This document shows positions 11,229 to 12,160 of a stretch of 64,000 nucleotides of DNA, in pieces. This stretch comes from Synergistaceae bacterium (GTDB lineage: Bacteria > Synergistota > Synergistia > Synergistales > Synergistaceae). Below the pieces are notes generated by a model, which had not been told where the DNA came from, made no database searches, and saw nothing but the letters and a program-made list of their open reading frames with translations. The DNA is taken from positions 1-64,000 of the forward strand of contig JAIRNC010000025.1 of NCBI GenBank assembly GCA_031258255.1, in the 5' to 3' direction. A program made the position numbers and the translations under genes. Each line of letters begins with the position of its first letter. Within the stretch, counting starts at the first letter, position 1.

Positions 11229-11259
11229 GGGATTGCCGAATCATTGTACGGGCATGTAC

Positions 11260-11514
11260 GGGCAGATCCATGTGTCTGCCCTGGGGGCGTTCGGGGGCGA
11301 AAACATAGGTTCGGGGGCTAACACATAGGTTCTGGGGGCGAACACATAGGTTCGCCCCTACAATGTGTGCAATGTTCAAATGAATACATTGTCATGCCGA
11401 ATCATCGTAGGGGCAGACCTATGTGTCTGCCCAGGGGGTACAATGTGTGCAATGGTTCAAATGAATACATTGTCATGCCGAATCATCGTAGGGGCAGACC
11501 TATGTGTCTGCCCA
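11260..11514. repeat. REP-type hairpin array with ~80-bp tandem duplication (copies 11361-11440 and 11441-11514)
   Basis: Hairpins GGGGCGAAC-ACATAG-GTTCGCCCC (11335-11358) and GGGCAGAC-CTATGT-GTCTGCCC (11411-11432, 11492-11513). Copies share CAATGTGTGCAATG(G)TTCAAATGAATACATTGTCATGCCGAATCATCGTAGGGGCAGACCTATGTGTCTGCCCA. Confidence 0.85.
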
Positions 11515-11539
11515 TCTGCCCGGGGGGGCGAACACAAAA

Positions 11540-12160
11540 ATGACGCGCGATAAAATACATCGCCGCAGGAGCATCCGTTTAAGGGGTTATGATTATTCGC
11601 AGAACGGCGCATATTTCGTCACAATATGCACGCAGAATCGTGAATGTTTGTTCGGGGATATTGTTGATGGCGAAATGCAAATGAATAATGCGGGCAGAAT
11701 GGTAGAAAAATGGTGTCAGGAAATCACCCGCAAATATACGGACATCCATGTGAATGAATACATTGTCATGCCGAATCATTTTCACGCAATCATCGTCAAC
11801 GCGGATCCCGCACCCGATCCCGATCCCGTACGGGCAGACCTATGTGTCTGCCCTGGGGGCGAACACATGGGCCCTGGGGGCGAACACGGATGTTCGGGGG
11901 GCGAACACGGACGTTCGGGGGGCGCGGGCGAACACATAGGTTCGCCCCTACATCGATGTGTGCAATGGTTCAAAACCATGACCACGAATGAATATATTCG
12001 ATATGTAAAAAACAATGGATGGAAACCGTTTGATAAACGATTGTGGCAACGGAATTATTACGAACATATTATTAGGAGCGATGACGAATACGCCCGCATT
12101 GCCGCATATATCGCCGGTAATCCGATGAATTGGAGGAATGACGGCCTGTGGGCAAATTAG
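11540..12160 (+). mobile_element. REP-associated tyrosine transposase (RAYT, Y1/IS200-like HUH) with hairpin-encoded low-complexity insert
   Basis: HUH motif VNEYIVMPNHFHAIIVN; HRCVQWFKTMTTNEYIRYVKNNGWKPFDKRLWQRNYYEHIIRSDDEYARIAAYIAGNP; insert VRADLCVCPGGEHMGPGGEHGCSGGEHGRSGGAGEHIGSPL. Confidence 0.9.

Follow-up and report, generated by a model that had tools for sequence, protein, structure and literature searches.

The window, the whole 64,000-nucleotide stretch of Synergistaceae DNA analyzed here, contains a rayt (TnpA-REP) gene that carries REP hairpins in its own reading frame, between the HUH motif and the catalytic tyrosine, and an array of related units directly upstream. The features are listed below in window coordinates.

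11234..11378, + strand: upstream unit 1, comprising rayt-derived TGCCGAATCAT, a degenerate REP A (11256-11281), half-REP repeats, an inverted REP B (11336-11361) and rayt-derived ATGTGTGCAATG (from alignment to the rayt core and from the repeats)
11379..11459, + strand: upstream unit 2, comprising rayt-derived AATGAATACATTGTCATGCCGAATCAT, REP A with an intact GTAG foot (11407-11432) and rayt-derived ATGTGTGCAATGGTTCAAA, with REP B deleted
11460..11531, + strand: upstream unit 3, with the same rayt-derived start as unit 2, REP A with an intact GTAG foot (11488-11513) and a truncated half-REP
11540..12160, + strand: rayt (TnpA-REP) ORF, 206 aa plus stop, ATG start (from the ORF list)
11768-11785: HUH motif MPNHFH of rayt
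11828..11853, + strand: REP A in the ORF, with foot GTAC (mutated from GTAG), 8-bp stem GGGCAGAC/GTCTGCCC and loop CTATGT, read as VRADLCVCP
11832-11853: hairpin A in the ORF, GGGCAGAC-CTATGT-GTCTGCCC
11855..11925, + strand: spacer of degenerate 21-nt half-REP repeats (GGGGGCGAACAC...), read as GGEHMGPGGEHGCSGGEHGRSGG (direct-repeat family D1, pattern search)
11926..11951, - strand: REP B in the ORF, inverted, with the foot GTAG intact on the - strand and stem GGGCGAAC/GTTCGCCC, read as GEHIGSPL on the + strand
11926-11947: hairpin B in the ORF, GGGCGAAC-ACATAG-GTTCGCCC
12107-12109: catalytic Tyr190 (YIAGNP) of rayt

The rayt product scored 26.6 bits against Y1_Tnp (Pfam cut-off 23), and its top family was REP_Tyr_transpos (NCBIfam NF047646), matched in two stretches at 57.8 bits, which is below the curated cut-off of 80 because the insert splits the match. 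Both profile and fold comparisons matched PDB 4er8, in which E. coli TnpA-REP is in complex with a REP hairpin, and MPNHFH and Y190 were invariant or conserved across 75 alignment rows. The ORF therefore has the HUH motif, single catalytic Tyr, Y1_Tnp domain and fold of a RAYT/TnpA-REP protein. Its predicted structure (pLDDT 82, pTM 0.77) has a confident core, and the insert, residues 96-128, was modeled at pLDDT <50 as a loop between the HUH strand (80-87) and a helix (137-159), a predicted placement consistent with the published peripheral variable region. In the RAYT tree, the protein clusters with Bacteroidota RAYTs, which is only a hint of possible transfer.

The first-pass annotation had described the ORF, the HUH motif, the insert peptide and both hairpins, and all four were found again where it had placed them; its main claim, that a RAYT carries hairpins of its own REP family in frame in the HUH-to-Tyr region, was borne out by the profile and fold matches and the structure model. 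The insert is in frame, runs from the HUH strand to the next helix and holds two perfect 8-bp hairpins. On the minus strand, hairpin B reads GTAGGGGCGAACCTATGTGTTCGCCC, and the intact copies of hairpin A at 11407 and 11488 read GTAGGGGCAGACCTATGTGTCTGCCC, so that hairpin B is hairpin A inverted, with its stem changed from AGA/TCT to GAA/TTC in a compensated manner. With stem changes that compensate each other, the two hairpins make the insert a REPIN, in which a single GTAG-tagged REP is followed by its inverted, stem-compensated copy. The annotation had correctly seen that the loops CTATGT and ACATAG are reverse complements, which follows from this inversion; its two hairpin "types" are one REP and the inverted copy of that REP. 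The peptides beginning GGEH between the hairpins are translated from the degenerate 21-nt half-REP repeats. The sequence features of REPs and REPINs were observed (a GT[AG]G foot, a hairpin, an inverted pair and dispersed copies), with GTAC as the foot of REP A in the ORF.

Shuffling gave an expectation of 0.03 occurrences of GGGCNNACN6GTNNGCCC in the window; there are 5, all within 11.33-11.95 kb, and none of 100 shuffles reached 5, which rules out chance palindromes. An assembly artefact is unlikely, as independent genomes have RAYTs with the same REP type at the same insert site. A search for known structured RNAs (Rfam) gave only a sub-threshold miRNA match, on both strands, over the palindromic array (25.6 bits against a gathering threshold of 101), and no tRNA target was present in the window.

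The hairpin copies reported upstream of the gene are present, but the array that holds them is no independent non-coding cluster, as the units carry rayt coding sequence. The first 27 nt of units 2 and 3 equal the rayt gene directly before and through MPNH, AATGAATACATTGTCATGCCGAATCAT being identical in both units and the gene, and the last 19 nt of unit 2 equal the gene after the insert, ATGTGTGCAATGGTTCAAA being identical in the two; unit 1 retains shorter versions of both flanks. The FHAIIVNADPAPDPDP segment is missing from all three units, and unit 3 ends just 5' of the rayt start codon. Hence, the array at 11234-11531 consists of about three truncated duplicates of the REP-bearing rayt core and is not a free-standing REP cluster. 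It probably arose by tandem duplication of this part of the gene.

The genome search proposed in the first-pass annotation was performed by pattern matching on the source genome, a 2.3 Mb draft in 130 contigs. It returned one more perfect hairpin copy, intergenic on contig C28, and REPs or REPINs with 1-2 differences on contigs C16 and C50. The copy on C16 lies in a DNA-methylase-like ORF (L038 137-2020), by reading of its sequence a putative type III modification subunit, where an in-frame REPIN at about 1544-1608 reads VGAGPCVCPGAGQPRGVALT just before DIGFRVF; this ORF starts near the 3' end of another rayt (fragment). On C50 (L167 2502-2588), an inverted REP pair begins in the last codons of an ORF and the GTAG foot gives its TAG stop, a situation described for GTAG REPs in PMC3733652. 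This genome thus has a small number of REPs, which are able to insert in frame into genes other than rayt.

Homologs were then collected from one genome per species, giving 80 RAYT loci from many phyla and 77 intact ORFs, including that of the window. At least one hairpin was present between HUH and WQ in 65 of the 77, a proportion that is no unbiased survey of all RAYTs, since the query whose best matches make up the 80 loci itself carries the insert. Hairpin density was 9.5 per kb in the HUH-to-WQ segment versus 0.43 per kb in the remaining core (22x). The other 12 RAYTs had no detectable hairpin in this segment, so not every RAYT requires the element. As the alignment suggested by the annotation showed, the insert differs among homologs and a few lack it, with empty or short loops in some (e.g., L109).

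The insert peptides vary widely (VGADLRVCP, VGAPLVGA, VGAGLVPA, VGAKNFSPLR and GRGTxxRAPT), and almost every one is the translation of a GTAG REP. Feet in forward orientation were read in the GTA/GGG (VG) frame in 47 matches and in the xGT/AGG (RG) frame in 17, a few of the latter being core sequence and not REPs; the TAG-reading frame had a single, non-REP match, as expected if stops were purged. Among 52 VG-frame feet, 41 were followed by a perfect 8-bp stem, with 28 distinct stems at ≤1 mismatch. Compensated stems occur, such as GGGTTGAC/GTCAACCC and GGGTCGAC/GTCGACCC. In the spacers of L049-L054, in-frame tandem half-REP repeats add length (e.g., LGEQQPLGEQQMLGEQQ, DENPTLRVCP) and are hypervariable among close relatives. 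A further hairpin was found N-terminal of the HUH motif at L050, L053, L091 and L111. REP-like peptides (VGDAALGVP, VGARIARP and VGAASCRP) were also observed at a second site before HUH in L018 (G152), L029, L015, L016 and other same-class RAYTs; in some cases, such as L018, the rayt copies that carry them are repeated in tandem.

The exact internal 8-nt stem was found again as a hairpin in the flanks of its own locus in 25 of 63 cases (shuffled-flank mean 2.2, maximum 7). In Solimicrobium (G215), the stem of the internal REP is imperfect (GGGCATCC/GGGTGCCC), and several dispersed copies share the imperfection. The loop-length class tracks the RAYT tree, with 14 changes against 31.8 after shuffling. 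With the element at the same place in most related RAYTs and its architecture following their tree, it is mostly inherited. Self-insertion, one of the two explanations offered by the annotation, was not supported as a recent event.

The number of copies differs strongly between genomes with the REP type of the window, from 2-4 in G183-G187 to 42-104 in G188, G189 and G191-G193. The REP matches in G183, G184, G186 and G187 (≤3 mismatches, tblastn-placed) fall within a rayt gene or at its edge; the exceptions are another type of REP in G183 and individual weak matches with 3 mismatches. G185 has one additional good copy. Beyond this type, the internal REP is the sole exact copy of its own type in G196, G200, G201, G205, G208, G212 and G216, and both exact copies in G203 are internal to rayt, as judged by comparing their positions with the contig ranges of the RAYT loci. 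About a dozen draft genomes thus have no exact copy, or almost none, beyond the internal REP, a count based on short, mostly exact patterns that miss degenerate dispersed copies. These low-copy genomes indicate that the internal REP is independent of a large dispersed family. Among the matches listed for G191 (the genome of L058), most dispersed REPINs combine unlike stems (AGAC with GAAC, GCAC or GGAC), like the internal REPIN; pairing unlike stem types may avoid a long perfect palindrome.

Codon usage was compared at positions where the encoded residue is the same. In the clade of 13 RAYTs around the window, same-residue codon identity was 82-100% in foot and stem, 50% in the core and 35-45% in the loop and adjacent codons. 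A second set was limited to five genomes in which other copies are scarce and comprised 6 intact RAYTs. Their cores share 65% amino-acid identity and 64% same-residue codon identity, but in stems and feet all 180 codon comparisons were identical, against about 55% expected for same residues. Columns with a single codon made up 12/12 of the stem versus 15/48 of the invariant-residue core (Fisher p about 1e-5), and for residues with at least fourfold codon choice 8/8 stem versus 0/15 core columns (p about 2e-6), p-values that are indicative, as pairs and columns are partly non-independent. Identical REPs in different RAYTs could also result from recent transfer or homogenisation instead of selection.

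The window gene is probably a RAYT of TnpA-REP subclass 2.4 (RAYT group 4): judged from its motifs, it has NH[IFV]H and WQ (NHFH and W169-Q170), in-frame REPs between HuH and Y and a variable beta3-alphaC segment. Its YIAGNP has 4 of the 5 fixed letters of YIxNNP, with G for the first N; an 8-aa insertion at the end of alpha-B is a further feature of the subclass. The view that the arrangement is exceptional is not supported: the text of Quentin et al. 2018 (PMC6006769) presents REPs that lie in tnpA-REP genes without breaking the frame, as a rule between HuH and Y, as a unique feature of this very subclass and suggests that the insertions have little impact on the protein. Intragenic GTAG REPs in general are treated by Di Nocera et al. 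2013 (PMC3733652).

We consider it probable that rayt has retained the REPIN as a cis-acting part of the gene, serving as a source copy, an autoregulatory site or both, and lying in a disordered loop; the function itself is what we infer. The insert, probably the cognate REPIN of the RAYT, occupies the loop that joins the HUH strand (beta-3) to helix alpha-C. On the lagging strand at replication (or in mRNA), it could be presented in single-stranded hairpin form, where the RAYT might bind or cleave it, and it might then act as the source of dispersed REPINs and/or regulate its own gene. The protein would tolerate the insert owing to the disorder of this loop and its position away from the catalytic core. 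The other explanation of the annotation, a selected cis-acting element, is favored by the synonymous-site conservation and by the genomes with nearly only the internal copy. It is also in line with the requirement for GTAG and stem features, to differing degrees, in those TnpA-REP enzymes of groups 2 and 3 that were tested (PMC8266576). The GTAC foot of REP A in the ORF counts against a cis-acting site, as such a foot abolished cleavage in a group-3 enzyme (PMC8266576).

It is also possible, though we advance it more tentatively, that rayt includes the REPIN as an integral and selected element throughout subclass 2.4, under purifying selection on DNA (or RNA) even without dispersed REPs. A gene carrying its own substrate under selection could seed a new REP family in any host that it reaches, or regulate itself. 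We know of no test of a subclass 2.4 enzyme. A rayt with a matched substrate in its own frame, synonymously conserved and at times without any other copy in the genome, offers a direct way to test how REP families originate, move from host to host and remain matched to their RAYT.

Alternatively, REPs might insert throughout the genome and survive in rayt through its flexible loop, as passengers refreshed by insertion or gene conversion. Such neutral tolerance is the view of intragenic REPs given in the texts of PMC3733652 and PMC6006769, and it would fit the predicted disorder of the loop, the empty or short loops of some homologs and, in the source genome, the in-frame REPIN of the methylase-like gene and the stop-codon REPIN on C50. 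We nevertheless regard it as unlikely, since several genomes have essentially no pool from which to refresh the element, yet their stems are perfect and synonymously invariant. In addition, the second rayt of G186 (C43), pseudogenised by an internal stop, has mismatched hairpins, although this is a single case.

Less probable still is that the hairpins work in the rayt mRNA, through pausing, stability or RAYT binding, and not as a DNA substrate. Stem and foot are conserved in the sense orientation and more REPs lie directly upstream of the start codon, which would fit such autoregulation, but the GTAG foot is kept along with the stem, which fits recognition of single-stranded DNA by TnpA-REP (PMC8266576). 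Selection on the encoded peptide (GADLCVCP...GEHIGSPL) is hardly credible: similar peptides do recur in the clade around the window, but synonymous sites of foot and stem are frozen while adjacent codons are free, the 28 different, mostly perfectly paired stems across RAYTs yield unrelated peptides, and the region is predicted to be disordered.

Compared with known systems, the window gene resembles subclass 2.4 as characterized in the text of PMC6006769 by NHxH, WQ, the in-frame REPs, the variable beta3-alphaC segment, the lack of a C-terminal extension and the scattering of its relatives over phyla; it differs in YIAGNP, the GTAC foot of REP A in the ORF and the upstream tandem duplicates of the rayt core. 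Like a REPIN or BIME, the insert has two GTAG-tagged hairpins in inverted orientation and is dispersed as a unit in related genomes, but it lies inside a coding sequence and its spacer is expanded by half-REP repeats. The intragenic GTAG/CGTC REPs and Rickettsia RPEs described in PMC3733652 are likewise palindromes read in frame or giving a stop codon; those elements hit many unrelated genes, whereas in the present case they lie in the gene of the cognate transposase, at a site common to most related RAYTs. E. coli TnpA-REP (PDB 4er8) shares the fold and the HUH and Tyr core, but it belongs to group 2, and its REPs, according to PMC8266576 and the text of PMC6006769, are bulged and flank the gene instead of lying inside it. 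A literature search for in-frame palindromes in RAYTs returned the known papers alone, and we found neither the synonymous-site conservation nor the near-exclusive presence inside rayt in the text of PMC6006769 or PMC3733652. In-frame REPs in a RAYT gene are therefore already known, and the conservation and low-copy results go beyond the main text of PMC6006769.
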